Origin: a virus | Reading direction: 5' to 3' (one strand) | IMG/VR virus record: IMGVR_UViG_3300015373_000326 | Location: 1-22,492 of that record | Length of the DNA: 22,492 nucleotides | Shown here: positions 1-18,717 of the stretch, piece by piece | Layout: the number at the start of each line of letters is the position of its first letter | Position numbering within the stretch: position 1 is the stretch's first letter | Notes under the pieces: generated by a model | What the model saw: the letters and a program-made list of their open reading frames with translations, nothing else | Database searches by the model: none | Told to the model about the DNA's origin: nothing | Program-made: the position numbers and the translations under genes

Positions 1-2
1 GG

Positions 3-101
3 AAGGTGGGCCCGCCATTGTTCGATGTTAAAGCCCGACTCGACAAGCCCAAGAAAAAGCGGATTCCGTATCACGAATACACCGGAGGATTCAAACCATG
101 A
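3..101 (+). CDS. C-terminal end of an upstream phage gene (partial)
   Basis: The third forward frame is open from the window edge to a TGA at 99-101, giving 32 residues that end in YHEYTGGFKP. The stretch is rich in Lys, Arg and Pro. Its stop overlaps the ATG of the next gene in an ATGA junction, the arrangement used throughout this window, which supports it as real coding sequence. The rest of the gene lies outside the window, so no function can be given. Confidence 0.6.
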   Translation, partial: KVGPPLFDVKARLDKPKKKRIPYHEYTGGFKP

Positions 102-556
102 TCACCGAAGAAATCGAAAGCCTTCCACGCAAAGCCAACTTCCACGTCCACCCGCGCTACACCTGCGGGTCGGGAGCCATGGTGGATATGATGACCTGTA
201 TGCACGTCGCCGCGCAGGAGAAGGAATCTTACCAACATATCTTGGAGGGAGCAGAAGGGGAGGAGCGACAAGCCCTCGCCCAAGAGGTCGGGCTCGAGGG
301 TATCTGTTACGCCCGGTGGGAGAAGGGGCGGAGGGTTTTCCGCTACGACCTCCTCACCGGGAGAACCTTCCAGGAACCCAAGCGCCTCGAGTATGAGGAG
401 CTGGAGCGGTGGAAAGTCCTCGAGAGTCACGTCAGGATCCTAGCCCGGTTCGGCTCCAGGGTCCCAGGCGAGGTCGGGATGAACGACAAGGACAAGCGGG
501 AGCTCGAAGCCTTGCGGGAGCGGGCTAAGATCCACCGGCAGGAGATCAAACCATGA
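98..556 (+). CDS. Hypothetical phage protein, 152 aa
   Basis: The product is a soluble, charged 152-residue protein that I do not recognise. The N-terminal third contains several His and Cys residues (HVHPRYTCG around residues 16-24, then a Met/Cys-rich MVDMMTCMHVA), so metal binding is possible but unproven. The C-terminal part is rich in Glu, Arg and Lys and looks helical. The ATG start has a good Shine-Dalgarno sequence (CGGAGGA, about 8 bases upstream) and overlaps the stop of the preceding gene. Its own TGA overlaps the ATG at 553. There is no signal peptide or membrane segment. It belongs to the operon leading into the replication genes. Confidence 0.75.
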   Translation: MITEEIESLPRKANFHVHPRYTCGSGAMVDMMTCMHVAAQEKESYQHILEGAEGEERQALAQEVGLEGICYARWEKGRRVFRYDLLTGRTFQEPKRLEYEELERWKVLESHVRILARFGSRVPGEVGMNDKDKRELEALRERAKIHRQEIKP

Positions 557-636
557 AAGCCGATAGACTGAAAAAGCCGATCAAGATCTTCTGAGCAGTC
601 GTCGTAGGCTACGGTCGTAGCATCCCAGAAGGATCC
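553..636 (+). other. 5' part of a small gene ending in an in-frame TGA
   Basis: An ATG at 553 overlaps the stop of the preceding gene (ATGA) and has a Shine-Dalgarno-like GCAGGAG about 9 bases upstream, so translation should begin here. The frame reads MKADRLKKPIKIF and then meets TGA at 592-594. After the TGA the same frame continues open as AVVVGYGRSIPEG straight into the 637-855 coding sequence. Both sides read like one small protein of about 100 residues. A TGG (Trp) codon changed to TGA, a sequencing error, stop readthrough, or restart at TTG 637 would each explain this. Confidence 0.5.
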
Positions 637-855
637 TTGCCCGTCTTCTCCGTGGATACGGAGGAGGAGGCAAGGATGTTGATCACGCTCACCTGCCCGA
701 CGGACATTGACGGAGTCCACTTCGCCCGGGAGCTGGCCGTCGAGCAGTCGTTGAAGAACCTCTACGCCTTCTCCGACCGCCTGGCGAAGGCGTGGGCCCT
801 CTGGCAAAAGAAGTCCAAACGCCGGCCGGCCCCGCCCAAAAAGTCCCGCAGATAA
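637..855 (+). CDS. Small conserved-looking phage protein, 72 aa, possibly the remainder of an interrupted gene
   Basis: This frame encodes PVFSVDTEEEARMLITLTCP, then an ARELAVEQSLKNL helix and a Lys/Pro/Arg-rich tail. From general memory it resembles small phage proteins of unknown function found near replication genes. The only restart codon close to the upstream TGA is TTG at 637, preceded by AGAAGGA 4 bases upstream, so independent translation is possible. In-frame sequence upstream (from 553) appears to be part of the same protein, separated by TGA at 592-594. The protein is soluble, with no known catalytic motif. Confidence 0.6.
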   Translation: MPVFSVDTEEEARMLITLTCPTDIDGVHFARELAVEQSLKNLYAFSDRLAKAWALWQKKSKRRPAPPKKSRR

Positions 856-880
856 TATAGGTGGCGGGACCGTTCACCGC

Positions 881-908
881 CGGAGGATCCGTTGCGTCGG
901 GTCCTCCG
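881..908 (+). other. Strong hairpin ahead of the replication-initiator gene
   Basis: CGGAGGATCC (881-890) pairs with GGGTCCTCCG (899-908) over 10 base pairs, one a G-T wobble, around an 8-base loop. No T-run follows, so it is not a standard rho-independent terminator. The left arm contains GGAGGA, a perfect Shine-Dalgarno sequence, and could hide a ribosome site or act as an RNA-level regulator. It sits in the short gap before the gene starting near 924. The structure is visible; a function is inference. Confidence 0.45.
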
Positions 909-923
909 ACCTACGTAGTCTTA

Positions 924-1817
924 ATGCCTATGGACATTCAAGAGAAGTACTCGCGGATCTTTGCTCGGCCGGTGGCTTTCCATCGGGTTTTCGTAGATTG
1001 GACCGGAAGTGTCCACGCCGCCCTAATGCTCTCCCAACTTGTGTATTGGAGCAGTCGGACCAGCAACAAGGAAGGTTGGGTGTATAAGACGGCGGAGGAT
1101 TGGGAAAGGGAGACAGGATTGTCCTACAAGAACCAACGTACTGCGAGGTTACAATTGAGGAGACTCCAGCTGATGAAGGAGCTCCTGTGCGGAGTACCGG
1201 CCAAGTTGTACTTCCGTGTTGTTTGGTCGGAATTTGATAGGCGATGCCGATTGGGAAAGCCTAGCCATGCCGAAGGGGAAAGGCTAGTTGGACCGGAGGT
1301 GTCTGACAAGCCATGCCGAATCGGCAGAACTAATACAGAGAGTACCCCAGAGAATACCCCGGAGGGGAAACTAAAGTTTCCCCCGCACGCCCCTGCCGGG
1401 GCGGCGAAGGACACCGGGTTGGGCATCCTTGTTAATGGAGAGATATCAACAATCCTCCAAGGCTTCTTCAAGCTGTGGAGACGGACCGGTAGTACCCGCT
1501 ATTCCTCCCAAGACAACTTCCAGGTCCTCGCCCCCAAGTGGAGGAATAGGGTTGAACGCCTCCTCGAGTCCGGCGTCAGCTTGGAAGAGTTCCGCACCGT
1601 CGCCAACTGGTATCTTGAACATGTGGATGACGACTGGACTCCCAAGTGGAACGGTGTTAATCACTTTTGTGACTCGTTCTTTGAGATCAGGAAGGCTATG
1701 CGTCGGGCCGGGGCCAAGAAGAACGGGCACAGCCGGGACGAGGACCCGGAGGAGATTATTGATCCAGAAACAGTCGGTAGCTCAATCGTCGAAGTGATAA
1801 GACATAGGAAAGGATAG
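924..1817 (+). CDS. Winged-helix replication-initiator-like protein
   Basis: The N-terminal third of this about 297-residue protein has the pattern of phage and plasmid replication-initiator winged-helix domains: HAALMLSQLVYWSS, then W(V)YKTAEDWERETGLS, then a recognition-helix-like QLRRLQLMKE and GVPAKLYFRV. A low-complexity linker follows (roughly residues 130-190), then a second helical domain with LWRRTG and WNGVNHFCDSFFEIRKAM. Proteins of this type usually bind the origin or load the helicase, and a DnaB-like helicase gene follows two bases after the stop. The start is uncertain: ATG 924 and ATG 930 both fit the domain, neither has a strong ribosome site, and the frame is open back to a GTG at 861. 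Confidence 0.7.
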   Translation: MPMDIQEKYSRIFARPVAFHRVFVDWTGSVHAALMLSQLVYWSSRTSNKEGWVYKTAEDWERETGLSYKNQRTARLQLRRLQLMKELLCGVPAKLYFRVVWSEFDRRCRLGKPSHAEGERLVGPEVSDKPCRIGRTNTESTPENTPEGKLKFPPHAPAGAAKDTGLGILVNGEISTILQGFFKLWRRTGSTRYSSQDNFQVLAPKWRNRVERLLESGVSLEEFRTVANWYLEHVDDDWTPKWNGVNHFCDSFFEIRKAMRRAGAKKNGHSRDEDPEEIIDPETVGSSIVEVIRHRKG

Positions 1818-1818
1818 T

Positions 1819-3216
1819 ATGCCAATAATAGTCAGGGACTACTCGGGTAAGGAAAGTCGGCCAGTGTTAATAGCTATGATGATTCATAGCGGGGTGTTGG
1901 GTCGGATCGCCTCCATTACCAAGGGCCACGAGAACTTGTTTGGAGGCAAGTGGGCGGATCTCATAGCGGGATGGTGCTTGGATTACTGGCGGAAGTATGG
2001 GAAGGCTCCGGGCAAGGCTCTTCTCCCCATCTTTCAGGATTGGGCCTTACAGTGTAAGGACAACGGGGCGGTGGAGTTGGTGGAATCTATGTTGGAGGGA
2101 TTGGGTAAGGAGGCCAGCCGGTCGGAGGATCTGAACGAGGACTTCATTGTGGATTTGGCCGCCCGTTATTTCGACGGGGCCCAGTTGAACCGGATCCAAG
2201 GGGAGATGGACGAAGCCCTCCGACAAAAGGACATCGACCAGGCGAGGGAGGTTCTCCTGTCCTACAAGAGGATCCAGTTGGGTAGTAGTGGCGAGATCCA
2301 AGTGGATGCGGAGTCCATAGCCCGGTCCTTGCTGAACCGGGAGAAGAACCAAGTGGTGATATGGCCTAAGGATTTGGGCAAGTTCCTCTCGCCCCACTTT
2401 TCGCGGGATCGGTTCATCTCGTTTGTGGGCCCGGAGAAGCGGGGCAAGAGCTACTGGCTCCAGGAAACCGTTTGGCAGGCCTTACGCCAACGCCGGCGGG
2501 TCCGTTACTATGTGGTCGGGGATATGAGCGAGGACGAGGTGATCCAACGATTGATGGTGAGATCCTCCCGACGTCCGTTGGATGCCAAGTCCATAAAGAT
2601 TCCTAGGGACCTTCAAATCATCAAGGAGGGGGCGGACCGGAAGCCGAAGGTCGAGTCGGAGGTTTATGATAGTGGGGAGGTCACCTTGAAGGGACGGATC
2701 CTAGATTGGGAGAAGATCGCCGGGAAAAGAGGAGGGCTCCTGTCATTACAATGTCGATCCGCCCATTCTATCACGGCCGGGGAGATCGAGAATGAACTAC
2801 GACACTTGGACCCGGAGGATGTACCGGACGTGGTGGTGATCGACTATGCCGACCTGTTGGCCCCGGAACCGCACACGGTGAAGATGGACTTCCGTCACCA
2901 AGTCAATATGACGTGGGCTTTGCTCCGGAGCATCTCGCAGAAGTATCACCTCCTGCTTGTGACTGCTACCCAGGCCGCCGCTACATCCTACGACCGGAAG
3001 TTGATCACGAAGAAGGATTTCTCCGAGGACAAGAGGAAGAATGCCCATGTGACGGGTATGATCGGGATCAACCAGACGGCCGAGGAGAAGGTGCACGGCA
3101 TCTACCGATTGAACTGGGTGTTCCTCCGGGACGGGAAGTGGGCGGACTTCCAAGTAGTCTGGACGGCGGGGAACCTGGCCGTCGGATGCCCTTGCTTCGT
3201 TTCCAAATTGCCGTAG
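1819..3216 (+). CDS. DnaB-like (SF4/RecA-fold) replicative helicase
   Basis: This 465-residue protein should unwind DNA at the phage fork. The C-terminal half carries a Walker A P-loop GPEKRGKS (residues 204-211) and a Walker B VVVIDYADLL (338-347), followed by a TATQAA stretch that matches the DnaB H3/Q region. The N-terminal 150 residues are helical and correspond to the region of DnaB that binds primase or loader. It begins two bases after the initiator-like gene with GGAAAGGA as ribosome site, so the two are probably co-translated. No primase with zinc finger or TOPRIM motif is seen in the window. A regulatory RecA-like ATPase is the alternative, but helicase is more likely given the neighbours. 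Confidence 0.85.
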   Translation: MPIIVRDYSGKESRPVLIAMMIHSGVLGRIASITKGHENLFGGKWADLIAGWCLDYWRKYGKAPGKALLPIFQDWALQCKDNGAVELVESMLEGLGKEASRSEDLNEDFIVDLAARYFDGAQLNRIQGEMDEALRQKDIDQAREVLLSYKRIQLGSSGEIQVDAESIARSLLNREKNQVVIWPKDLGKFLSPHFSRDRFISFVGPEKRGKSYWLQETVWQALRQRRRVRYYVVGDMSEDEVIQRLMVRSSRRPLDAKSIKIPRDLQIIKEGADRKPKVESEVYDSGEVTLKGRILDWEKIAGKRGGLLSLQCRSAHSITAGEIENELRHLDPEDVPDVVVIDYADLLAPEPHTVKMDFRHQVNMTWALLRSISQKYHLLLVTATQAAATSYDRKLITKKDFSEDKRKNAHVTGMIGINQTAEEKVHGIYRLNWVFLRDGKWADFQVVWTAGNLAVGCPCFVSKLP

Positions 3217-3224
3217 ATAATAGG

Positions 3225-3488
3225 ATGAAGAAGAAGATGAACCAAGCAGTTAACAACCTAGGGCGGCGGCAGGGTATGAGCTGGAGGCTGTTGGAATTGC
3301 TCCAGCAGCGGGAAGGTTGGTGGCACGACCATGAGGTGTCCAAACTCACCGGCTTGCCCCTCTCCGTCGTCCGGCCGGCGCTCCACTACTTGCGGAGGGT
3401 CGGGGCCGTGAAGTACCGGAAGCAAATCCAGTATCGCCTCGACGGTCGGAAGTCCTTGGATCGTCTGCTCAAGAGAAAGAAGAAATGA
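3225..3488 (+). CDS. Small winged-helix (MarR/ArsR-like) DNA-binding protein
   Basis: This 87-residue basic protein contains a compact winged-helix core: SWRLLELLQQREGWW, then HEVSKLTGLPLSVVRPALHY as the helix-turn-helix, then LRRVGAVKYRKQIQYRL as helix end and wing, and a Lys/Arg tail. Such proteins bind duplex DNA and may regulate transcription or aid replication. ATG 3225 is preferred, although ATG 3237 has a more purine-rich upstream region. The stop overlaps the ATG of queD (ATGA). The DNA-binding prediction is from pattern only and the target is unknown. Confidence 0.65.
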   Translation: MKKKMNQAVNNLGRRQGMSWRLLELLQQREGWWHDHEVSKLTGLPLSVVRPALHYLRRVGAVKYRKQIQYRLDGRKSLDRLLKRKKK

Positions 3489-3988
3489 ACACAGTAACCA
3501 AATCCTACCGGGACTTACCAGCAGCTCATAGACAACCCAATCACGATGGCCACTGCCGACTCATTCATGGTCATAATTTCGCCTTCGATATAACCTTCGG
3601 GTGTAATTTCCTAGATGAGAATGGCTTCGTGGTGGACGTGGGCAAGTTGGAGGAAGTGAAGGCCTTCCTCGTGGAGAGCTTCGACCACACCCTTCTCCTC
3701 AACTCGGACGATCCGCGGTTGGAATATCTTGTCGCCGGGCTCACATCGGAGCTCAAGGTTACGCCCGGCGGGGTAGGGGAGGAGGATACTGAGACGGTGC
3801 AGTCTCCGGTCGCAAAGATAGTGTTCGTCCCCAACTGCGGGATGGAGGGATTGGCGAAGTGGGTGTTTGAGGAAGTTCAAGGGATCGTGACCAAGCAGGT
3901 CCCCGGAGCAAAGGAGCGGGGCCTGCTTGTGGTGGAGGTCGTTTGTTGGGAGGACTCCAAGAACCGGGCAACCTATCGACACGAATGA
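3485..3988 (+). CDS. queD: 6-carboxy-5,6,7,8-tetrahydropterin synthase (QueD)
   Basis: QueD converts 7,8-dihydroneopterin triphosphate, the product of GTP cyclohydrolase I, into 6-carboxytetrahydropterin, the second step toward preQ0. The family's zinc histidines are present (AAHR with H15, and HGH with H28 and H30), as is the catalytic Cys24 in DGHCRLIHGH and the Asp-His pair at SFDHTLLLN (D67, H68). A PNCGMEGLAKWVFE segment stands for the usual PTxENLA motif. At 167 residues it is longer than the roughly 120-residue bacterial enzymes, with an insert around residues 85-110. It overlaps queE by an ATGA, so the two are translationally coupled. Confidence 0.92.
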   Translation: MNTVTKSYRDLPAAHRQPNHDGHCRLIHGHNFAFDITFGCNFLDENGFVVDVGKLEEVKAFLVESFDHTLLLNSDDPRLEYLVAGLTSELKVTPGGVGEEDTETVQSPVAKIVFVPNCGMEGLAKWVFEEVQGIVTKQVPGAKERGLLVVEVVCWEDSKNRATYRHE

Positions 3989-4680
3989 GCTTCCCACTTC
4001 CCATCCACGAACGGTTCCACACCTTCCAAGGGGAGGGTGTGTATATGGGTTGCCCGGCCTTCTTCATCCGCACCTTCGGGTGTCCGGTCCAATGCCCTTG
4101 GTGTGATAGCGCCGGGACTTGGCATCCTTCCTGGGTCCCGCAACACGTCGAGCGGATACCCGTGGCGCAGCTCGTCCAGGAGCACCGGGACGGGCCGGAG
4201 GTGGACTTCGTCGTCATCACCGGGGGTGAGCCGGCCGTCCATGACCTGACCGAGCTGACTGAGGAGTTGGCGTGCCGGATCCACCTCGAGACGAGCGGGA
4301 CGTTCCCGATCAGGGGGACTATTGATTGGATTACCCTGTCCCCGAAGAAGTGGAGGATGCCGCTGAGGGAGAACGTCCAGAGGGCCCACGAGTTCAAGGT
4401 GATCGTTGAACAGCCGTCGGACATCAAGTACTACTCCGATGCTATTGGAGAAGTGTTCAGTATGAAGGAGGGGAAGCTACACGCCCCGATTTGGCTCCAC
4501 CCTGAGTGGGGACACCGGGAGGATCCCGTGACGCTTGGAGCGATCAGTGACGCGGTCAAGGAAGGCCGGGGACGGTTCCGGGCCGGGTGGCAGATTCACA
4601 AACCTTACCGGGTGGATAGTCGGGACGCCCGCACGCAAGTCTTAGTTCCCCTCGGCGGGGACCTGAGGAAGGGATACTAA
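3985..4680 (+). CDS. queE: 7-carboxy-7-deazaguanine synthase (QueE), radical SAM enzyme
   Basis: QueE uses S-adenosylmethionine and a 4Fe-4S cluster to contract 6-carboxytetrahydropterin to 7-carboxy-7-deazaguanine. The 231-residue protein starts with the family pattern ERFHTFQGEGVYMGCPAFFI and has the radical-SAM cluster motif CX3CX2C (C33, C37, C40, in CPVQCPWCD). It also has the SAM-binding ITGGEPAVHDL and a HLETSGTFP segment. The ATG at 3985 overlaps the queD stop and places the start just ahead of the conserved motif, although the frame is open further upstream. A 45-base gap with a small direct repeat separates it from the folE fusion. Confidence 0.95.
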   Translation: MSFPLPIHERFHTFQGEGVYMGCPAFFIRTFGCPVQCPWCDSAGTWHPSWVPQHVERIPVAQLVQEHRDGPEVDFVVITGGEPAVHDLTELTEELACRIHLETSGTFPIRGTIDWITLSPKKWRMPLRENVQRAHEFKVIVEQPSDIKYYSDAIGEVFSMKEGKLHAPIWLHPEWGHREDPVTLGAISDAVKEGRGRFRAGWQIHKPYRVDSRDARTQVLVPLGGDLRKGY

Positions 4681-4692
4681 ACGCCGGAAAAG

Positions 4693-4723
4693 CGAAGACA
4701 AACGCGGTTTTGAACGAAGACAA
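4693..4723 (+). repeat. Two copies of CGAAGACAA, 22 bases apart
   Basis: The gap between queE and the folE fusion holds CGAAGACAA at 4693-4701 and again at 4715-4723, just before the ATG at 4726. The 22-base period is about two helical turns. The same 9-mer also occurs inside coding sequence near 15413 and 20767. It could be a protein-binding site or an RNA element, or chance. Confidence 0.35.
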
Positions 4724-4725
4724 TT

Positions 4726-5649
4726 ATGGATAAAAGGATTCTAAGCCAAGCGGATTGCATGAAGGCCGTCCACCGGCTGATTAAGGACGAGGAGATCTTC
4801 AACGGGTTTCGTGTGTATGGTGTCCCGCGTGGAGGCACCGAGGTGGCCAGACTTTGCGGCAAGGCGAGCAATAAGTTAATGGAGGTGGAGCACGCATCGG
4901 AGGCGGACTTCATTGTTGATGATATTGTGGACAGTGGGGCGACACGGGATCGCTACCGGCAGCGGTTCCCGAAGGCTCCCTTTCTAGCCCTCACCGACTA
5001 TCTGGATCCTCCCCACGTCCACGGTCAATGGATTGTTTTCCCGTGGGAGGTGACGGAGGACGGGGAGGATCGCTCGGCCGACGATATCGTGGTCCGGCTT
5101 CTCCAGTACATCGGGGAGGATCCCAAGCGGGAGGGTTTGGTTGGCACTCCGCAGCGGGTGTTGAAGGCGTGGAAGGAGTTGACGGTCGGGTATGGACAGG
5201 ACCCGGCGGCGATCCTGTCCCGGGACTTCGCGGCTGACAAGTATGACGAGATCATAGCTTGCCCGTTCATCGAGTTCTTTAGTTGCTGCGAGCATCACCT
5301 CCTCCCCTTCTTCGGTGTCGCCCACGTCGCCTACCTTCCCTCGGCCGAGAAGCCGCGGATCGTCGGGTTGTCGAAGATGGCCCGGCTCGTCGATTGCTTC
5401 GCCCGCCGCCTCCAGATCCAAGAGCAGATGACCATTCAGATTGCCGACGCAATGGAGGAACACCTGGACCCGAAGGGAGTGGCGGTGATCATCCAAGCCA
5501 AGCACTTGTGTATGGCCTGCCGGGGAGTATCCAAGCGGGAGAGTGTGATGGTGACGAGTGCGATGCGGGGAGTCTTCCGTGACAACGATCCGGCCCGGTC
5601 GGAGCTCTTCAAGTTGATCGAATTGGCATCCCATAGTAACGGGAGATAA
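4726..5649 (+). CDS. folE: Phosphoribosyltransferase-GTP cyclohydrolase I fusion
   Basis: This is a two-domain protein of 307 residues. The N-terminal part (about 1-115) looks like a type I phosphoribosyltransferase: GVPRGG (32-37) and the PRPP-binding motif [12 protein letters not shown] (63-74). The C-terminal part (about 118-290) is GTP cyclohydrolase I, which opens GTP to 7,8-dihydroneopterin triphosphate, the first step to preQ0. Its zinc ligands are present (C188 and H191 in SCCEHH, C262 in HLCMACRGV), as are [17 protein letters not shown] and LVGTPQRV. The GTP cyclohydrolase part is near the usual length and looks intact. The role of the phosphoribosyltransferase part is not known to me; nucleotide or base salvage, or binding a pathway intermediate, are guesses. 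No strong ribosome site precedes the ATG. Confidence 0.9.
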
Positions 5650-5655
5650 TACGGC

Positions 5656-5955
5656 ATGAATGCCTACCAAGAACCGAAGTATGAAGTCAAAGGCGGGAAG
5701 CTGGTCAACCGGCAGTCCGGTGAAGCTATCCCGGACGACGAGCCTGTGTTTATCCTCCGGGCTAGGGACAAGTATGCCGCCCACACCATCATCAGTTACT
5801 GTCAGGCCGTCCAAGACTCCCAACACCGGGAGGCCTCCCGGCTGAGGGCTGCTCAGTTCTCCAACTGGGCGGCACTCCACCCGGAGAGGATGAAGGAACC
5901 CGATAGTCAAATGGACACCGGTTGGACTTCCGCCGGGAACCCTCCGACGACATGA
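5656..5955 (+). CDS. Hypothetical phage protein, 99 aa
   Basis: This is a small soluble protein with an N-terminal stretch typical of an uncharacterised phage family: KYEVKGGKLVNRQSGEAIPD, then DEPVFILRARDKYAAHTI. The remainder is helical with several Gln, Arg and His residues and includes SNWAALHPERMKEPD. It has a GGGAGA ribosome site about 10 bases upstream of ATG 5656 and its TGA overlaps the dpdA start. Its place between folE and dpdA suggests co-expression with the DNA-modification genes, but there is no catalytic motif to link it to that pathway. Confidence 0.75.
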   Translation: MNAYQEPKYEVKGGKLVNRQSGEAIPDDEPVFILRARDKYAAHTIISYCQAVQDSQHREASRLRAAQFSNWAALHPERMKEPDSQMDTGWTSAGNPPTT

Positions 5956-6956
5956 TTGACGTCGAGGGTATATTCATGGACTCGGGTGCGTGGGGTCTCT
6001 TCACGCAACAAGTCCTGAAACGTGGCAAGTCGGCGGAGAGGATCGGGAAGCACGGACGGATCCTCGAGCCTCCGCCGATAGCGAACAGCTCCTTGGACTT
6101 CTCCTACTTCAACCTGACCAAAGGTTCCCCGTTCCGGGAGTACTGTGACAACTACGCCAAGTTCATGAAGGCGATGGCCGGCCGTCTCGACTTCTGCGCC
6201 AACGTGGATGTGATCGGGAACCCGGAGTTGACGATGGAAACCCAACGCTACTTCGAGGAGGAACACGGGCTCCGCCCTGTCCCGGTGATCCACCAAGGAT
6301 CCTCCATGAAATACGTCGAGCATTACCTGGGCCGGAACTACGACATGATTGGCTTAGGTGGGTTTGCATCGGGAGTAGGAGGGTGGGAAACGATGCGACC
6401 CTGGTGCGACGATGTCTTCATGATAGTCTGCCCCGCCTCCAACAAACACCTCCCGGTCTGCAAGGTTCATGGGTTCGCAATGACGGGCCTGAAAGGGATT
6501 TGGAGGTGGCCGTGGTTCAGTGTGGACTCGACCTCGTGGTTGATTTGGCCCGCCAACGGGTGGATCCCTGTGCCGAGATGGTCGGAGACTAAAGGGTGGA
6601 TGTACGATCGCCAGCCAATGGTGATCAATGCCTGCCCGGCATCCTCCACGACGAGGCGCCGGGAACGCCACATGCTCAACATCTCCGAGCGGGTCCGCGG
6701 ATTGTTCCTCCAGTACATGAAGGAGGCCGGGGTGCCAATCGGGGAGGCGGTGTTGGAGAGTGTGAAGGTGAAAGGGGAGTGGGTGGAGAAGTGGAAGATG
6801 GTAGAGTGGGGTATCGTCTCGCATCACCGGGCCCGGATGGAGGCGAACCTTTACTACTTCAAGGAACTGCAGAACAACCTACCCGCTTGGCCTTGGCCGT
6901 TGAACCCTAAGATAATGCATAGGCGCCGGGCGATCCCGGCCGGCTTTGGACTATGA
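5952..6956 (+). CDS. dpdA: DNA 7-deazaguanine transglycosylase (phage DpdA)
   Basis: DpdA is a paralogue of tRNA-guanine transglycosylase that swaps guanine in DNA for a 7-deazaguanine such as preQ0. The 334-residue product shows the phage DpdA pattern: FMDSGAW with D10, VIHQG around residue 114, IGLGGFAS around 133-140, KVHGFAMTG at 171-179, and PWFSVDSTSWLIW with the likely nucleophile D192. ATG 5952 overlaps the preceding stop and leaves a short N-terminus before the conserved Asp; an in-frame TTG at 5922 is less likely. With FolE, QueD, QueE and QueC here, the phage can make the base and insert it. No canonical TGT-type CXCX2C zinc motif is visible. Confidence 0.9.
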   Translation: MIDVEGIFMDSGAWGLFTQQVLKRGKSAERIGKHGRILEPPPIANSSLDFSYFNLTKGSPFREYCDNYAKFMKAMAGRLDFCANVDVIGNPELTMETQRYFEEEHGLRPVPVIHQGSSMKYVEHYLGRNYDMIGLGGFASGVGGWETMRPWCDDVFMIVCPASNKHLPVCKVHGFAMTGLKGIWRWPWFSVDSTSWLIWPANGWIPVPRWSETKGWMYDRQPMVINACPASSTTRRRERHMLNISERVRGLFLQYMKEAGVPIGEAVLESVKVKGEWVEKWKMVEWGIVSHHRARMEANLYYFKELQNNLPAWPWPLNPKIMHRRRAIPAGFGL

Positions 6957-7141
6957 GAATCTACTTCAGCGGCGGCACCGGGATTGAGGGCGTGGACGAG
7001 AAGTGCTTCGACAAGTGGAAGCCCAAGCCCTATGTAATGTTGAGCTTCTTCGAGCTCAAGACGTCGAAGTCCAAAGCAACGGTCCGTATGATTAAGGCTC
7101 ACCTAAAGAGAAAGAAAAACGATGCGCATAAACCGCGATGA
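6953..7141 (+). CDS. Small hypothetical protein next to dpdA, 62 aa
   Basis: The short basic product begins MRIYFSGGTGIEG, has a FFELKTSKSKATVRMIKAHL helix, and ends in Lys/Arg. Its ATG overlaps the dpdA stop and its 3' end overlaps the sliding-clamp gene by 20 bases. From general memory, proteins starting with a similar M(K/R)IYF(A/S)G stretch occur beside phage dpdA genes, so it may be a companion of the transglycosylase or a shortened relative of a longer protein. No catalytic motif is seen. Confidence 0.65.
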   Translation: MRIYFSGGTGIEGVDEKCFDKWKPKPYVMLSFFELKTSKSKATVRMIKAHLKRKKNDAHKPR

Positions 7142-8177
7142 ACTGATTAAGGATTTGGTAATGGTGAAGGCCGGCGTCTCGCCGCGGGAGTTTATTGAAC
7201 AGAGCTCCTGCTTCGTATTCAACGAGGGCGAGGTCATGACCTTCAACGACGAGGTGGCCTGTCGGAAGAAGACGGTGATACAAGTCCGCGGGGCCGTCCA
7301 GGCCGCCACCCTGATGGCTATCCTAGAGAAGATGAACGACCCGGAGCTGGAGGTGAAAGAGAACGAGAAAGGCGAGTTAGAGTTCCGGGGCAAGCGGAAA
7401 GCCTTCGGAGTTACCATGGACGCGGAGATCTTTCTCCCGATCGACCGGGTAGAGATCCCGGAGAAGTGGAGGAAGCTACCGGAGGCGTTCACCGAGGCGG
7501 CGGATCTGGCCCAGCATTGCGTCAGCTCCGACGAGAGTAAGTTCATCCTAACCTGCGTCCACCTTCACCCCGAATGGATTGAGAGCTGTGACAACCTCCA
7601 AGCCATTCGGGTGAAGGTGGACACCGGGCTTAAGCGATCCTGTTTGATCCGCGGGACCTCGCTCCAGCACATCAAGGACTTGGCGATGGATGAACTCGCC
7701 GTGTCCCCGTCCTGGGTCCACTTCCGTAACAAGGCCGGGTTGATCTTCTCCTGCCGGCGCTACTCGGAGGACTACCCGGACCTGTCCAAGATCTTCCTCG
7801 TCAAAGGGCACTCCATCAAGGTTCCCCGGACGTTGGCCGAGGCGAGCGACCGGGCGGCGGTGTTTGCAACCGACAAGGCTGGCGACCCGCTAGTCACCGT
7901 CACCCTAGAGACGGGCCGGGTTTGCCTGAAAGGAGAGGGGATCACCGGGTGGTATAAGGAGATCAAGAAGCTCGCCTACGACGGACCGCCAATGGAGTTC
8001 TCCATCTCCCCGACCTTGCTCAAGCATGTTTCGGAGGAGTACTCGGATGCGAGGATCTCCCCGGACAAGATGCGGGCGGAGGGTGACAAGGAGGGTAGGA
8101 GTTGGCAATACGTTACTGTCCTTGGAAATAACAACGGGAAGAAGAAAGAGGAGACGGTTAAGCCCAAGGAGAAATGA
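7122..8177 (+). CDS. dnaN: Sliding clamp (DNA polymerase III beta-like)
   Basis: This 351-residue protein most likely forms the ring that tethers the phage polymerase to DNA. The start has the clamp pattern: LVMVKAGVSPREFIEQSSCF, then VFNEGEVMTFNDEVACRK. The length agrees with a three-domain clamp of about 120 residues per domain, and a clamp-loader ATPase is encoded downstream. The C-terminus ends in a Lys/Glu-rich tail (NNGKKKEETVKPKEK) rather than a compact end. ATG 7122 lies inside the end of the previous gene and follows a purine-rich AAAGAGAAAG. Sequence divergence from bacterial DnaN is large, so the call rests on pattern, length and context. Confidence 0.82.
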   Translation: MRINRDELIKDLVMVKAGVSPREFIEQSSCFVFNEGEVMTFNDEVACRKKTVIQVRGAVQAATLMAILEKMNDPELEVKENEKGELEFRGKRKAFGVTMDAEIFLPIDRVEIPEKWRKLPEAFTEAADLAQHCVSSDESKFILTCVHLHPEWIESCDNLQAIRVKVDTGLKRSCLIRGTSLQHIKDLAMDELAVSPSWVHFRNKAGLIFSCRRYSEDYPDLSKIFLVKGHSIKVPRTLAEASDRAAVFATDKAGDPLVTVTLETGRVCLKGEGITGWYKEIKKLAYDGPPMEFSISPTLLKHVSEEYSDARISPDKMRAEGDKEGRSWQYVTVLGNNNGKKKEETVKPKEK

Positions 8178-9358
8178 AAGGCTTCTTCGCAGTCGATGAG
8201 TTCGTGGAGAGGCCGGAGGTCGGGCTCGTCCCGAAGTGTGGGGCCTGCGGACTACTCAAGACTTGTCAGACTCCGAAGATGCCTCCCTACGGGAAGGGCA
8301 AGCGGGGTGTCCTGATCGTCGGCGAGGCCCCGGGCCAATCGGAGGACGAGCAAGGCCGGCCGTTCGTCGGGAAGTCCGGGCAGTTCCTCCGCGGGACCCT
8401 CGAGGGCTTGGGTTTCGATATGGACCGATACGCTTGGGTAACCAACGCCTTGATCTGCCGGCCGCCGGGCAATGCGACCCCGGACGACAAACGGATCTCC
8501 TACTGCCGGCCGAACTTGATCCAAGCGATCCAAAGACTCCAGCCCAAGGTCATCATCGCCTTGGGACGGTCAGCACTGAGCAGTGTGTTGGGTCCCTTCT
8601 GGACCGGGGACATAGGGACAATGGATCGCTGGACCGGGTGGACGATTCCGTTGGAGACGTATTGGGTTTGTCCCACCTGGCATCCCGCCTACCTACTGCG
8701 GATGAAATCCAATTTGATGGATCGCTTGTTCCGGGGACACCTCGAGCAGGCCCTCTCCCTCGCCTCCGAGCCCGTCCCGGTGAACGTGATGAAAGACTTC
8801 CAGCCCCGCCTTCTCTACGAGGACCGGGAGATTTATGAAGCCATCCGGGACCTCAACCGGGCCGGAGGATGGGCGGCAGTGGATGTCGAAACGAATTGCA
8901 TCAAGCCAGAGTGGCCGAAAGGTAGGATCGTGTCCTGTTCCATCTCCAACGGGGCGGATACAATCTCCTATCCATGGACTCCGACGGCCAGGGAGTACAC
9001 CGGGATGTTCATCAACTCCAAAGCGACGAGGAAGATCAGCTCCAACCTGAAGATGGAAGAGAGATGGTTCCTCAAAGAGTTTGGTCACGGGGTGGTCAAT
9101 TGGGGACATGACACGATGTTAGCTGCCCACTGCCTCGACAACCGGACCGGGATCTGTTCGCTCAAGTTCCAAGCCTTCGTCCGCTTGGGCGTCCCGTCCT
9201 ACAACGACAAGCAGGCCGCCTACCTCGAGGCGGTCAAAGGCCAACCTTACAATCGGATCGCCGAGTTGGACATACACCGCCTCCTTTACTACGGGGCCAC
9301 CGACTCTTACTTGGAATGGCATCTCGCCAAGTTACAACGGAAGGAACTACATGCCTGA
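8174..9358 (+). CDS. Family 4 uracil-DNA glycosylase fused to a 3'-5' exonuclease domain
   Basis: Residues 1 to about 200 are a family 4 (iron-sulfur) uracil-DNA glycosylase. They include CGAC (C22, C25) and C95/C111 as the four cluster cysteines, motif GEAPGQSEDEQGRPFVGKSG (50-69) and a WHPAYLL catalytic-His motif (H170). Residues 230-394 are a DnaQ/PolA-type proofreading exonuclease: ExoI DVETN (D237, E239), ExoII-like NLKMEE (291-296) with Glu in place of the usual Asp, HDTMLAAH, and ExoIII YGATD (Y373, D377). The protein stops there; the polymerase domain is in a separate gene after a 139-aa ORF. It probably removes uracil and proofreads for the phage polymerase. It overlaps the next gene by 8 bases. 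Confidence 0.9.
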   Translation: MKGFFAVDEFVERPEVGLVPKCGACGLLKTCQTPKMPPYGKGKRGVLIVGEAPGQSEDEQGRPFVGKSGQFLRGTLEGLGFDMDRYAWVTNALICRPPGNATPDDKRISYCRPNLIQAIQRLQPKVIIALGRSALSSVLGPFWTGDIGTMDRWTGWTIPLETYWVCPTWHPAYLLRMKSNLMDRLFRGHLEQALSLASEPVPVNVMKDFQPRLLYEDREIYEAIRDLNRAGGWAAVDVETNCIKPEWPKGRIVSCSISNGADTISYPWTPTAREYTGMFINSKATRKISSNLKMEERWFLKEFGHGVVNWGHDTMLAAHCLDNRTGICSLKFQAFVRLGVPSYNDKQAAYLEAVKGQPYNRIAELDIHRLLYYGATDSYLEWHLAKLQRKELHA

Positions 9359-9770
9359 TCTACCCAAGCCAACCCTCCGCCGGCTCCTCGACGCTGCCGC
9401 CCAAGTCGGCGCAGACCGGCTCGCTATGGTGAGGAGTTCAACTCCCTGCCGGGAGTCTGGTCTATTCGTGCTCATGATCGGGGCCAAGGCCGTCCGGGAC
9501 CTCGGCCCAATCTGTATTGAGGCGGCGGCCAAGGTTACCGATGAACACGGACTCCCGGTGCACAAGGGTGATCTCCAACCGGATGATAACCTGGACGAGT
9601 GGTTCGACAAAATGGTGGCGGAGAAGACTTACTTCGCATGGGGTAAGAAGGACGACCCTTACGTTATGTTCACCTTCTTCGTCGGCCAGGAGCTCGTGGA
9701 CTACTTGGCCCCCAGGTTGACGGAACAAGGGTGTTGGTGTGAAGGCGGCGGACCGCCGAAGAGATATTAA
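9351..9770 (+). CDS. Hypothetical protein between the exonuclease and polymerase genes, 139 aa
   Basis: I do not recognise this 139-residue protein. It appears to be a soluble alpha/beta fold: a helix TLRRLLDAAAQVG, strand-like segments around LFVLMIGAKAV and YVMFTFFVGQELVDYLAPRL, and a Cys/Gly-rich end (GCWCEGGGPPKRY). No nuclease, ATPase or metal motif is clear. It overlaps the UDG-exonuclease gene by 8 bases and ends one base before the polymerase ATG, so it is co-translated with the polymerase parts and may be an accessory protein of that complex. Confidence 0.75.
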   Translation: MPDLPKPTLRRLLDAAAQVGADRLAMVRSSTPCRESGLFVLMIGAKAVRDLGPICIEAAAKVTDEHGLPVHKGDLQPDDNLDEWFDKMVAEKTYFAWGKKDDPYVMFTFFVGQELVDYLAPRLTEQGCWCEGGGPPKRY

Positions 9771-9771
9771 A

Positions 9772-11265
9772 ATGTCGGGCATTTGGGACAACAACTCACG
9801 GATGAAAGTACAAGCCAATAGGCAGGAAGGATATCAACTCCTTCAGGACGGATTGCACGAGCTCTCTTGGGTGGAGAGTGTCGGCATCCGTATCGACACC
9901 CGGCGCCTCGCCTGGACCAAGGAGAAGCTTCAGGGTTTGACACGCGACCTCCGGCGGGAGCTGGAGGAGGATAAGACGTGGACCCGGTGGAGGAGGCGGT
10001 TTGGAGCCAAGGCGAACCTCAACTCGAGAGATCAGCTGGCGGTTATATTACACGACGAGCTAGGGCACGAGGTCAAGAAGACCACGGAGAACGGCCGGCC
10101 GATGATGGACGAGGAGAGTCTGGCCGACTTGAATCACCCCTTCGTAGATCGTCTCTCCAAGCTGTACAAATACGACAAGGCCCTCAAGACGTTCCTCACC
10201 GGCATCGAACGGGAGGTTATCGGGGACCGCCTCCACCCGATCTTCAACTTGCACATTGCCCGGTCCTATCGTTCCTCGTCGGACAGCCCCAACTTCCAGA
10301 ACTTTCCGGTGAGGGATAAGATCATATCAAAGATCATCCGCTCGGTGTTCATCGCCTCGCCGGGGTGCATCCTAGTAGAGAACGACTTCAAAGGGATAGA
10401 GGTGGGCGTGAGTGCCTGTTACCACAAGGACCGGAACTTCATCTCCTACATCACGACACCGGGCAAGGACATGCACAAGGATATGGCCGCCCAAATCTAC
10501 AAGCTCAAACCGGAGCAGGTGGACAAGGACATCCGCTACGGGGCCAAGAACAAATTTGTCTTCCCCCAATTTTACGGTGACTTCTACGTGTCTTGCGCCC
10601 GGAACCTCTGGGAGTGGATCCGACAAGGGAAGCTGAAGGGACCCGATGGCGGATCGCTCCGGGACCACCTAGCGGAACAAGGGATAGAGGAGCTGGGAGC
10701 CTGCGACCCGGACTCTCCGCCCGTCCCGGGAACCTTCGAGCACCATCTCAAGAGGGTGGAGCAGGACTTCTGGGACAGGCGCTTCCAACAATACGGCCGG
10801 TGGCGGAAGGAGTGGTACACCGCCTATCAGGAGCGGGGCTACTTTGACCTCCTGTCCGGGTTCCGGATCCACGGCATGTTCACCCGCAATCAGGTTATCA
10901 ACCTCCCGGTTCAAGGGAGTGCATTCCATTGTCTGCTCTGGTCCCTGATCCAGGTCAACCGGAAGCTGCGGGCGGCGGACATGAAGAGTCGGGTCGTTGG
11001 GCAGATCCACGACAGTATGATTGGGGATGTGCCGGAGGAGGAACTCACCGACTATTTGGAGATCGTAGCCTCCGTCGTAAAAGAGTTGCGGACCCACTAT
11101 AAGTGGCTCATCATCCCGTTGGAAATTGAGTGTGAGATCTCGCCGCCGGGCAAGAGTTGGTTTGCCAAGCGGGAGGTGAAGTACAAAGATGGAAAGTTCG
11201 AGCACGAAGGGAAGGCGGTGTCCGCCTCCCGGTTCTTGAAGATAATGGATCAAAATGGAAACTAG
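9772..11265 (+). CDS. DNA polymerase, family A, polymerase domain only
   Basis: This 497-residue protein carries the polymerase part of a PolI-type enzyme without exonuclease domains. Motif A is VENDFKGIE with the metal-binding D205 and E210. Motif B is RYGAKNKFVFPQFYG (255-269), a phage form of the O-helix. Motif C is VGQIHDSM with H413 and D414. SYRSSSDSPNFQNFPVRD (165-182) is the primer-side motif. The missing 3'-5' exonuclease is in the gene at 8174 and the 5' nuclease in that at 16566. ATG 9772, two bases after the previous stop and behind AAGAGA, is preferred over the in-frame GTG at 9739. Its end overlaps the clamp-loader gene by 11 bases. Confidence 0.93.
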   Translation: MSGIWDNNSRMKVQANRQEGYQLLQDGLHELSWVESVGIRIDTRRLAWTKEKLQGLTRDLRRELEEDKTWTRWRRRFGAKANLNSRDQLAVILHDELGHEVKKTTENGRPMMDEESLADLNHPFVDRLSKLYKYDKALKTFLTGIEREVIGDRLHPIFNLHIARSYRSSSDSPNFQNFPVRDKIISKIIRSVFIASPGCILVENDFKGIEVGVSACYHKDRNFISYITTPGKDMHKDMAAQIYKLKPEQVDKDIRYGAKNKFVFPQFYGDFYVSCARNLWEWIRQGKLKGPDGGSLRDHLAEQGIEELGACDPDSPPVPGTFEHHLKRVEQDFWDRRFQQYGRWRKEWYTAYQERGYFDLLSGFRIHGMFTRNQVINLPVQGSAFHCLLWSLIQVNRKLRAADMKSRVVGQIHDSMIGDVPEEELTDYLEIVASVVKELRTHYKWLIIPLEIECEISPPGKSWFAKREVKYKDGKFEHEGKAVSASRFLKIMDQNGN

Positions 11266-12181
11266 TCTTTACAAGAAGTACCGGCCTCGCCGGCTATCGG
11301 ACTTACTAGGTCAGGACGGGGCCGTCTCCAGCTTGAAGCTGCTCGTTCAGGAAAATCGGGTTCCACAGACCATCCTGCTGGCCGGCCCGTCGGGATGCGG
11401 TAAGACGACCATTGGAAGGATTCTCAAGGAGAAGCTCGGCTGCGGCGACCCGGACTACTTCGAGATCAACTGTGCGGACTTCCGCGGGATTGATACGGTC
11501 AGGGACATCCGCCGGGCTGTTAACCTCCGGCCGATGGCGGGTGAGTGTCGGATTTGGTTGATCGACGAATGCCATAAACTTACCAACGACGCCCAGAACG
11601 GCTTGCTCAAGGTCCTCGAGGACACTCCGCCCAAAGTTTACTTCATGTTAGCAACGACGGATCCTCACAAGTTGATCAAGGGCATCGTCACCCGGAGCAC
11701 CCAAATCTCTGTCGTTCCTCTGTCCCTAAAATACCTGGCGGTGTTGGTCCGGGATATCGCCGCGAAGGAGAAGTACAAACTCACCGAGGATGTGGTGGAC
11801 GCCCTCGTGGAGGCCGCCGACGGATCCGCTCGCAAGGCCTTGGTTATCCTGGAACAGATTGGAGGGTTGGCTTCGGAGGACGAACAACTCTCCGCCCTCA
11901 AAGGGGCTACGCTCGACAAGATCGTAGTGAAGAAGCTGGTTCAGGTTCTACTCTACGGACGGAACAACTGGAGCGAGGCGGCGGGTTGTTTGCGGGCCTT
12001 GGAAGAGGAGGACCCGGAGCACATCCGTTACATGATCTTGGGATACTGTCGGAAGGTTCTGTTAGGCGGTGGCAAGTTGGCTCCACGGGCCTACATCATA
12101 CTGGATGTCATGGCCGACAATTTCTTTAACAGCAAACAAGCAGGACTCGCCGCAGCCTGCTGGGAGATAATGAATCAATAA
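11255..12181 (+). CDS. dnaX: Clamp loader ATPase (DnaX/gp44-like)
   Basis: This 308-residue AAA+ protein should open and load the sliding clamp encoded at 7122. It begins with the DnaX signature LYKKYRPRRLSDLLGQDGAV and has Walker A GPSGCGKTT (44-52), Walker B WLIDECHKL (101-109), sensor 1 MLATTDPHKL (131-140) and an SRC-like segment TRSTQ (146-150) in which R147 may be the arginine finger. It lacks the zinc-finger insert and the C-terminal tau extension of bacterial DnaX, so it resembles the compact T4 gp44 or RFC small subunits. No second loader subunit is seen in the window. Confidence 0.92.
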   Translation: METSLYKKYRPRRLSDLLGQDGAVSSLKLLVQENRVPQTILLAGPSGCGKTTIGRILKEKLGCGDPDYFEINCADFRGIDTVRDIRRAVNLRPMAGECRIWLIDECHKLTNDAQNGLLKVLEDTPPKVYFMLATTDPHKLIKGIVTRSTQISVVPLSLKYLAVLVRDIAAKEKYKLTEDVVDALVEAADGSARKALVILEQIGGLASEDEQLSALKGATLDKIVVKKLVQVLLYGRNNWSEAAGCLRALEEEDPEHIRYMILGYCRKVLLGGGKLAPRAYIILDVMADNFFNSKQAGLAAACWEIMNQ

Positions 12182-12187
12182 AGCTAT

Positions 12188-12580
12188 ATGCAACTCATCG
12201 AACAACAACACAAACAGATGGTGAAGTCGTTAGTCAAGAACCCGGCGGAGATCTTGGCCGCCTTGGATCCGGTCAAGGTGGACCTACTCCACGCTATGCT
12301 CGGTATTGCGAGCGAGGCCGGGGAATTGTTGGACGCCGTAAAGGCCCACGTCATCTACAACAAACCATTGGATAGGGTGAACGTGAAGGAGGAGCTCGGC
12401 GACCTTGAGTTCTACTTGGAACAATTCCGGACCAATCCATACATGGACGTTGGTCGCGAGGAAGTCCTAAGGGGTAACATCGAGAAGCTGGCCAAACGTT
12501 ACAAGGACTTCAAGTACACCGACAAGCAGGCCGTCGAACGGGCCGACAAACAAGCCGGCGCCGCCGGATCCATGTCATGA
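12188..12580 (+). CDS. MazG-like nucleotide pyrophosphohydrolase
   Basis: The 130-residue all-helical protein has the MazG/dUTPase-like metal motif: EXXE in SEAGELLDAV (E43, E46), followed after about 22 residues by EXXD in EELGDLEFYLEQ (E69, D72). Enzymes of this family hydrolyse NTPs or dNTPs to monophosphate and pyrophosphate; in phages they are thought to adjust nucleotide or alarmone pools. The C-terminus RYKDFKYTDKQAVERADKQ is typical of the phage form. The gene has no clear ribosome site and lies 6 bases after the clamp loader. Its stop overlaps the next ATG. Confidence 0.85.
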   Translation: MQLIEQQHKQMVKSLVKNPAEILAALDPVKVDLLHAMLGIASEAGELLDAVKAHVIYNKPLDRVNVKEELGDLEFYLEQFRTNPYMDVGREEVLRGNIEKLAKRYKDFKYTDKQAVERADKQAGAAGSMS

Positions 12581-13098
12581 AAAGCGGGAACGAGGAAAAG
12601 ACGACCCGGCGGGAACGGGCGGAGATCACCGTCCAGATCGACGAGCTCCGCCTCGGTGACGAATGCGTCAACCTCCCGCACAATTACCTACAGGCCGCCC
12701 ACCAAGCTGCGGACTCCCGGCGGGATGTGGAGTATGCTAAGAACGAGCTGGAGGTGGTGGACGCCGACCTCTGCAAGCACATCCGGTCCACACCGGGCAA
12801 GTATGGGTTGGAGAAGGTCACCGAGTCGGCGATCAAAGAGATCGTAGTCCTCCAACCACCTTACAAGGAAGCCCAATCCCGGTTGATCAAGTCCAAGCAC
12901 CGGCAGGACTTGGATCAGGCCCTCGTGAGTGCCCTCGAGCACAAGAAGAGGGCCCTCGCGATGCTGGTGGATTTGCACACCTCCGGTTACTTCTCCGAAG
13001 TCAAACCGACCACGGCGGAGGGTCGGCAGTCCATGGAACAGAAGATGAAGGAACGGATACGGACCCGCGGGCAACGGAGAGAGGAAGAGGAGGAGTGA
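12577..13098 (+). CDS. Helical protein, possible UvsY-like recombination mediator
   Basis: This 173-residue protein is nearly all helical and charged, with a coiled-coil-like core (NYLQAAHQAADSRRDVEYAK, then NELEVVDADLCKHIRSTPGKYG, then KVTESAIKEIVVLQPPYKEA) and a Glu/Arg-rich end. This organisation matches small phage proteins that I recall being linked to T4 UvsY, which loads UvsX recombinase onto SSB-coated DNA. Sequence alone does not prove it. The context supports it: a gp32-like SSB and a RecA/UvsX-like gene follow directly. The ATG overlaps the stop of the MazG-like gene, and the stop overlaps a GTG-started membrane peptide. Confidence 0.55.
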   Translation: MKSGNEEKTTRRERAEITVQIDELRLGDECVNLPHNYLQAAHQAADSRRDVEYAKNELEVVDADLCKHIRSTPGKYGLEKVTESAIKEIVVLQPPYKEAQSRLIKSKHRQDLDQALVSALEHKKRALAMLVDLHTSGYFSEVKPTTAEGRQSMEQKMKERIRTRGQRREEEEE

Positions 13099-13217
13099 TC
13101 ATTCTTTACATTTTGCTTGGAGTGTTGCTGCTACCAATAGTCGCCTACTTGGTGATGAAGTTTGGAACGGCGGGCTACCTTCGGGCGAAGGAACAGTACA
13201 ACAACCGAAAACCATAA
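13095..13217 (+). CDS. 40-aa single-pass membrane peptide
   Basis: A GTG at 13095 overlaps the preceding TGA (GTGA) and opens a 40-codon frame ending in TAA at 13215-13217. Residues 2-21 are strongly hydrophobic (IILYILLGVLLLPIVAYLVM), followed by a soluble basic end containing GTAGYLRAKEQYNNRKP. This is a clear transmembrane segment with a cytoplasmic-looking tail. Purine-rich ribosome-site sequence (GAGGAAGAGGAGGA) runs up to the start. It fills what would otherwise be a gap before the SSB gene. The function is unknown; membrane attachment of the replication or recombination complex is a guess. Confidence 0.65.
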   Translation: MIILYILLGVLLLPIVAYLVMKFGTAGYLRAKEQYNNRKP

Positions 13218-13230
13218 ACAAAAGGACATT

Positions 13231-17408: not shown

Positions 17409-18013
17409 GAGCCAAAAAAGGATCCCAGTTTGAACGGAAGATCTGCCGGACACTATCCCGCTGGTGGAGCCTAGGAGGGTGGCCGGAGGAGGAAGTGAGG
17501 GACGATATCTTCTGGAGGTCATCCCAGTCCGGCGGCCGGGCAACCTGGCGGGCGAGGAAAGGATTGAAGACAGCCAACTCCTACGGGGACGTGGCGGCAA
17601 TGGACCCGATCGGCCGGCCGTTGCTCAAGATGTTCACCATCGAGCTCAAGCGGGGAGACTCCCACGGTCATCCGCTCGACCTGCTCGACGCCCGGCCGAC
17701 GGATACCCAACGCAAATGGGAGAAGACGTTGAAGCAAACGGTGGACTCCATGACGGATGCGGGTTCACTTGGCTGGCTCCTCATTCACCAACGGGACTTT
17801 CGGGAGTCCGTGGTTTACATCGACTGGCCGACGGCCAAGCGGTTCAACCTCCTGAAGATCTGTCCCACCTTCGTTCTCTTCAAGGTGCGGGTGAACGAGG
17901 GGAAAGGAAAGAGGTGGTGGAGGCTCTACTACGGGTGCCTCCGGCTCGAGGATTTTCTCCGGGTAATGAAGCCCGCGGAGATAATAGAACAAATAGAAAG
18001 GATCACAGAATGA
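17405..18013 (+). CDS. Hjc-like Holliday junction resolvase / PD-(D/E)XK nuclease
   Basis: The 202-residue protein starts MRAKKGSQFERKICRTLS, the usual start of Hjc-like nucleases with E10. SYGDVAAMD follows with D62, and then FTIELKRG with E80 and K82, completing the PD-(D/E)XK active site. The FWRSSQSGGRAT segment between is also typical. It should cut branched DNA produced by recombination or before packaging. The C-terminal 90 residues are alpha/beta with a Trp-rich stretch. A restriction-like nuclease is a possible alternative, but recombination neighbours favour a resolvase. Confidence 0.85.
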   Translation: MRAKKGSQFERKICRTLSRWWSLGGWPEEEVRDDIFWRSSQSGGRATWRARKGLKTANSYGDVAAMDPIGRPLLKMFTIELKRGDSHGHPLDLLDARPTDTQRKWEKTLKQTVDSMTDAGSLGWLLIHQRDFRESVVYIDWPTAKRFNLLKICPTFVLFKVRVNEGKGKRWWRLYYGCLRLEDFLRVMKPAEIIEQIERITE

Positions 18014-18717
18014 AAAAAACGCTAGTGTTGGTTTCCGGCGGGATGGACTCAGCGGTATTACTCCGGGAGATGCGCCAGTGCTCCGGAGTGGTCCGGGCGA
18101 TCTCCTTCAACTACGGTCAGCGCCACGGGATTGAGTTGGAGTATGCCGCCCGGCATTGCACCGAGCTTGGGGTGAGGCATGAGATCGTGGAGATGTCCTT
18201 CCTCAAACACCTCCTCCCCGGCTCCTCCCAGACTGACGCCTCTGTCCCGGTGCCGGCCGGGCACTACTCGGAGGAGTCCATGAAGGCGACGGTCGTCCCC
18301 AATCGGAATATGATCATGCTGTCGATCGCGGCCGGCCACGCCCTTGCTAACGACATCGAGTCGGTGGCCTACGCTGCGCACTACGGGGATCATGCCATCT
18401 ATCCCGATTGCCGCCCGGAGTTCGTGGGCGCCCTGAACGGGGCCCTCGCCCTCTGCGACTGGAAGAAGGTCCGGGTGGAGACTCCGTTCGTGAACTTGTC
18501 GAAGGCGGACATCCTGAAGGCCGGGATCGCCTTGAAGGTGGATTGGAAGGAAACGTATTCCTGTTACACCGGGCAGACCCTCCAATGCGGACGGTGCGGG
18601 ACTTGCATCGAGCGGCGGGAGGCGTTCCACTTGGCCGGGGTGGAGGATCCGACGGAATACAACCCGGCGACGGCCCCGATGCTCGGTGATTTGGTTCTTA
18701 AAGGTTTCAAACTCTAA
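18010..18717 (+). CDS. queC: 7-cyano-7-deazaguanine (preQ0) synthase (QueC)
   Basis: QueC converts 7-carboxy-7-deazaguanine with ammonia and ATP to preQ0. The 235-residue protein has the PP-loop SGGMDS (9-14), the SFNYGQRHGIELE segment, VVPNRNMIMLSIA, and the zinc site C185, C193, C196 and C199 in CYTGQTLQCGRCGTC. It is full length. The gene lies more than 11 kb from dpdA, next to the resolvase, whose stop it overlaps. This split placement, with the same + orientation, suggests either separate acquisition or rearrangement. It ends at the border of the longest non-coding stretch in the window. Confidence 0.95.
   Translation: MKKTLVLVSGGMDSAVLLREMRQCSGVVRAISFNYGQRHGIELEYAARHCTELGVRHEIVEMSFLKHLLPGSSQTDASVPVPAGHYSEESMKATVVPNRNMIMLSIAAGHALANDIESVAYAAHYGDHAIYPDCRPEFVGALNGALALCDWKKVRVETPFVNLSKADILKAGIALKVDWKETYSCYTGQTLQCGRCGTCIERREAFHLAGVEDPTEYNPATAPMLGDLVLKGFKL

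Follow-up and report, generated by a model that had tools for sequence, protein, structure and literature searches.

A probable split, circularly permuted DpdA in the preQ0 pathway of an uncultured phage

An uncultured phage, represented by the IMG/VR record IMGVR_UViG_3300015373_000326, encodes a complete pathway for preQ0 synthesis and a DpdA that lacks the N-terminal part known from other phage DpdAs, and this part appears to be encoded separately, directly behind the catalytic chain. It is probable that the two polypeptides form a split DpdA of swapped order, i.e. circularly permuted, that exchanges phage-made preQ0 for guanine in the phage DNA. 7-Deazaguanines in DNA are known to protect against restriction, and to our knowledge the enzyme that inserts such bases has been described so far as a single protein; a search of the open-access literature found no paper on a split or permuted DpdA. 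A recurrent split, circularly permuted barrel enzyme in uncultured phages would explain DpdA ORFs that look truncated, and, if true, the annotated ORF may fail when it is expressed alone, and the enzyme would be a test case for a TIM barrel working as two pieces.

The window, as the analysed stretch is called here, is the entire linear record of 22,492 b. Two overlapping contigs belong to the same phage. IMGVR_UViG_3300015372_000028 (G001) equals positions 1-14837 of the window at 100% identity, including the region of the DpdA core and piece, and adds 9,040 b upstream, and IMGVR_UViG_3300015372_000199 (G002) shows 2 differences over the 7,660 b that it shares with the window from 14833 on, and continues downstream for about 15.2 kb. 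Together with the window (G000) they cover about 46.7 kb, a part of the genome, instead of 22.5 kb. No overlap joins the outer ends of this stretch, the left one of G001 and the right one of G002.

Table 1. Features of the window that relate to preQ0 synthesis and DpdA.
Feature	Position	Strand	Family match or basis
QueD (6-carboxytetrahydropterin synthase)	3485..3988	+	PF01242 4e-25; phrog_2389 9e-30
QueE (7-carboxy-7-deazaguanine synthase, radical SAM)	3985..4680	+	phrog_2076 7.5e-33; TIGR04322 2.9e-28
FolE (GTP cyclohydrolase I) with N-terminal phosphoribosyltransferase-like domain	4726..5649	+	PF01227 8e-68, above cut-off
Small ORF between FolE and DpdA	5656..5955	+	no family match (Pfam/PHROGs/NCBIfam)
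DpdA core, from the DSGA strand on	5952..6956 (readable from TTG 5922)	+	phrog_887 1.4e-28
62-aa ORF, putative DpdA N-terminal piece (b1-a1-b2-a2)	6953..7141	+	leave-one-out HMM E 4e-9; profile matches to DpdA N-termini
DNA polymerase clamp (next gene)	7122-8177		phrog_947
QueC (7-cyano-7-deazaguanine synthase)	18010..18717	+	PF06508 2e-62; TIGR00364 above cut-off

The preQ0 pathway

The preQ0 pathway is complete. The original prediction had stated that FolE, QueD, QueE and QueC all keep their catalytic residues, and family models (Pfam, PHROGs, NCBIfam) together with motif-bearing alignments to solved structures from the PDB bear this out. QueE aligns with PDB 6nhl (2.7e-24) and keeps the CxxxCxxC motif (gCpvqCpwC), QueC aligns with PDB 2pg3 (2e-29) and keeps SGGmDS and the CGRCGTC cluster, and FolE keeps the CEHHL and HLCM motifs of solved structures; in QueD, HGH and FDH lie within the alignment to a solved QueD structure, and the Cys and the Glu were read by eye. 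As the scores of QueD and QueE are below the NCBIfam equivalog cut-offs, these two are divergent. The start of QueE lies on the stop of QueD (ATGA overlap), and QueC, which sits 11 kb from the other pathway genes, also starts on the preceding stop (ATGA overlap). The conversion of GTP to preQ0 by these four enzymes is established for their families, and they would carry it out here as well.

The N-terminus of the FolE ORF (4726-5100) is a phosphoribosyltransferase-like domain with a PRPP loop that is fused to FolE, as recognised by phrog_8995 (7e-6), NF006613 (9e-6) and the loop. Such a loop N-terminal to FolE was found in 14 of the 51 FolE ORFs of the fetched loci. It is a speculation that the domain recycles the guanine that is freed by DpdA.

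The DpdA core

A phage-type DpdA had been predicted as well, and sequence profile and catalytic residues agree with this: the ORF (5922-6956) matches the profile of phage DpdAs (Table 1), tblastn led to 215 phage records, and DSGA (D20), D96, H183 and SVDS (D202) are kept and invariant across the split group. Base exchange in DNA by DpdA is established for the family. The more likely start is ATG 5952 and not TTG 5922, since this ATG lies on the stop of the small ORF (ATGA), and the core then has 334 aa.

The ORF by itself, however, lacks the barrel strands of the N-terminus. In alignments, known phage DpdAs have a strand-helix-strand-helix segment ahead of the catalytic DSGA strand, and in the window at most 19 residues precede DSGA, only 9 if translation starts at ATG 5952. 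The AF2 model of the ORF (pTM 0.80, alignment of 31 sequences) has six parallel barrel strands, not eight (17-19, 89-93, 122-124, 142-146, 181-185 and ~200-201, as assigned by us from the DSSP string of the model), and the core thus differs from described members, in which a single chain forms an eight-stranded barrel like that of tRNA-guanine transglycosylase (TGT). A VIA-align comparison of the model with the PDB gave only TGTs among the 50 matches listed, with a Z of ~13.5 and an alignment that covers only TGT residues 73-371; in Zymomonas TGT it begins at residue 73. With Foldseek alone nothing reached E<=0.001, and PADLOC called no DpdA. When the DpdA profile was run against PDB sequences (hmmsearch), only beta-lactamases were matched, and these were discarded as spurious. 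The interval of the original prediction (3485-6956) includes the core, and the matching N-terminal piece at 6953-7141 falls outside of it.

A candidate N-terminal piece

The 62-aa ORF follows directly after the core, with its ATG 6953 on the stop TGA of DpdA (ATGA), and encodes MRIYFSGGTGIEGVDEKCFDKWKPKPYVMLSFFELKTSKSKATVRMIKAHLKRKKNDAHKPR. By its sequence, it resembles the N-terminal beta-alpha-beta part that is missing from the core. An HMM of nine pieces from the clade of the window matches the N-terminus of the intact DpdA in L038/L048 with an E-value of 1.9e-6. When a profile of all pieces, some of which had initially been picked from truncated loci with a motif, was compared with the N-termini of 29 full-length DpdAs by hhalign, the score was 34.8; none of 200 column shuffles exceeded 14.1, and the reversed profile reached 8.1. 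The pieces of the window clade alone gave a modest match (17.6, shuffles at most 14.9), and the C-terminally fused pieces alone, which are described below, were with 15.8 not above the shuffles (16.6). The window piece alone had no match at E<=10 in phage isolates, and a weak match of the L022 piece in pEt-SU, inside a very large protein, was judged to be due to chance. Six synonymous and no nonsynonymous codon changes separate the pieces of L014 and L016, and the piece is apparently under purifying selection.

If the piece is what it resembles, the core would contribute strands b3-b8 of the barrel together with all the catalytic residues, and the 62-aa protein would contribute b1-b2 and thereby close the TIM barrel. 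The order of core and piece is reversed relative to an ordinary DpdA, and the enzyme would therefore be not only split but also circularly permuted. The stop-start overlaps at 5952-5955 and 6953-6956 would favour a coupled translation of both parts. The assembled DpdA of two polypeptides would put preQ0 in place of guanine, and the product would be phage DNA in which part of the guanine is preQ0, which can be expected to resist restriction.

Distribution among relatives

The association of the piece with truncated cores was examined in 84 loci with family-wise leave-one-out HMMs, which were used to remove the bias of the motif search from the count. A separate piece within 6 kb (E<0.05) was found in 29 of the 38 loci with an N-truncated DpdA and in none of the 46 with a complete one, where "truncated" follows a motif rule that mis-sorts a few loci (L043 is probably complete, L079 lies at a contig edge, L089 is frameshifted). 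At <1e-3, there still are 26 of the 38 truncated loci, with the window at an E-value of 4e-9. No p-value is given, because the loci are related, and the leave-one-out results are the reliable set, as piece HMM E-values outside of it include seed sequences.

The arrangement of the window recurs in L013-L017, the cores of which are 38-52% identical to that of the window, and also in the distant relatives L099, L100, L101 and L107, which are assembled genomes, mostly MAGs. In some relatives the piece is 0.4-4.5 kb distant from the core. Judged from these sequences, the two-gene DpdA in reversed order is a layout common to uncultured relatives. In L026 a single ORF comprises the core with the piece appended at its C-terminus (leave-one-out E 2e-7); a C-terminal fusion is weakly supported in L051 (leave-one-out 0.04) and recognised by eye only in L042, L054 and L055. 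If this reading is right, these fusions are natural circular permutants of DpdA. In the AF2 model of the L026 fusion, with only 5 poorly aligned rows at the piece, the piece has a pLDDT <50. On a tree of the cores, the split or permuted state needs at least 7 changes, so that splitting or fusing recurred and a single origin is not supported. Five phage isolates, of the 215 isolate matches, were inspected and no split DpdA was found in them; L092, L093, L095 and L096 are isolates with a DpdA in which sequence precedes DSG. In the fetched stretch of pEt-SU there is no DpdA.

Near a single core, L013, L019, L028, L099 and L102 carry the N-terminal piece in two or three diverged copies; in the window phage there is just one. 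A frameshifted extra piece is present in L014/L015, which are one relative pair, and L102 is among the loci with piece copies or N-termini in a shifted frame, in some cases at simple-repeat tracts. A GA-dinucleotide tract lies in the N-terminal region of dpdA in L031, L033, L035 and L056 (~5795-5850), and none of the four has the start MKINFAGTPG in the reading frame of the remainder; phase variation or an assembly error are possible reasons. It is conceivable, if rather doubtful, that the piece is an exchangeable module, so that one core works with alternative and possibly phase-variable b1-b2 pieces that alter the sites or the bases exchanged. In L017, a DpdA ORF of 649 aa (5980-7929) is broken by an intein-like stretch.

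Comparison with known systems and alternative explanations

The DpdA of the CAjan/Seuratvirus type (Hutinet et al. 2019, PMC6884629) has DSGA, the conserved His and SVDS in common with the window core at about 25-32% identity, and its neighbourhood (FolE, small ORF, DpdA, clamp, DNA polymerase) and preQ0 gene set match those of the window. It is one protein with b1-b2 in place at the N-terminus, whereas the window encodes the putative b1-b2 part in an ORF of its own behind the core. Bacterial and archaeal TGTs have the TIM-barrel fold and the catalytic Asp pair in common with the core, but the core aligns with them only from residue 73 on, its chain would be split, and the expected substrate is DNA, not tRNA.

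One alternative is an ordinary dPreQ0 pathway with a self-sufficient DpdA and an unrelated small phage protein next to it. The core does hold all the catalytic residues, small ORFs are common near dpdA in isolated 7-deazaguanine phages, and the profile match of the window-clade pieces to canonical N-termini is only modest. The core alone, however, is without two barrel strands, sequence profiles relate the piece family to the N-terminus of intact DpdA, and the piece accompanies truncated and not complete DpdAs and is fused to DpdA in L026, which makes this alternative unlikely. That dpdA is a decaying gene, which has lost its N-terminus in a phage that has given up DNA modification, is very unlikely: the frameshifted extra piece in L014/L015 and the out-of-frame N-termini in L031/L033/L035/L056 would fit, but the catalytic residues are invariant across the split group, the changes between the L014 and L016 pieces are biased to synonymous ones, the truncated architecture with the piece recurs in many distinct contigs, and the pathway genes are intact. 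A split DpdA thus is the preferred reading.

With regard to the base, CAjan and Rosebush, which have FolE, QueD, QueE, QueC and DpdA but no amidotransferase, carry dPreQ0 in place of ~32% and ~28% of G, respectively (PMC6884629), and because this minimal gene set sufficed there, preQ0 is a sound prediction for the window phage. No amidotransferase was found in the ~46.7 kb of the window phage; the window differs in the position of QueC, the extra domain of FolE and the two putative pieces of DpdA. The original prediction had noted that no QueF or amidotransferase is seen in the window, and this extends to all three contigs, in which QueF (PF14489) had no match above the cut-off, with the sub-threshold matches in the window and G001 falling in FolE, and GATase_6 (PF13522) had no match; preQ0 in DNA is therefore a reasonable default. 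Neither QueF above the cut-off nor GATase_6 was found in 29 further records whose DpdA is split or permuted, and many of these records are fragments. A derivative of preQ0 (dADG, dG+, dPreQ1 or another), made by a host gene or by a phage gene beyond the sequenced part, is a less likely but quite possible outcome that is compatible with a split DpdA, as the ends of the ~46.7 kb are not joined and other 7-deazaguanine phages carry dG+, dPreQ1 or dADG, some of them without an obvious phage gene (PMC6884629, PMC8306585). Given the lack of QueF and GATase_6 matches in the ~46.7 kb and the dPreQ0 of phages with the minimal set, a partial replacement of guanine by preQ0 in the phage DNA seems most likely.

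Genomic neighbourhood

The order FolE, small ORF, DpdA, clamp and polymerase recurs in isolated 7-deazaguanine phages, in one comparison without the small ORF, and this recurrence is therefore well above chance. Cyanophage MinM2 has an ORF 55% identical to the small ORF, and its surroundings there contain no annotated 7-deazaguanine gene. Some relatives have a glycosyltransferase-like ORF immediately 5' of the split DpdA (L018 3550-4557, L020 4614-5927, L021 4784-6001, L022 4917-5993, L023 4769-5935; Pfam Glycos_transf_1, some below the cut-off), which might glycosylate the inserted base; in the window no such ORF lies between FolE and DpdA.

The right part that G002 adds has thymidylate synthase, glycosyltransferases and methyltransferases, and portal and capsid ORFs that were identified by eye. 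The former three are not typical tailoring genes, though they may have a role. In one ORF of G002 (L006 7897-8772), the thymidylate synthase match covers positions 1-203 of 266 and is followed by a stretch like sigma-70 region 4, and a cluster of glycosyltransferase and methyltransferase genes (L007 1327-6674) lies amid the head genes.
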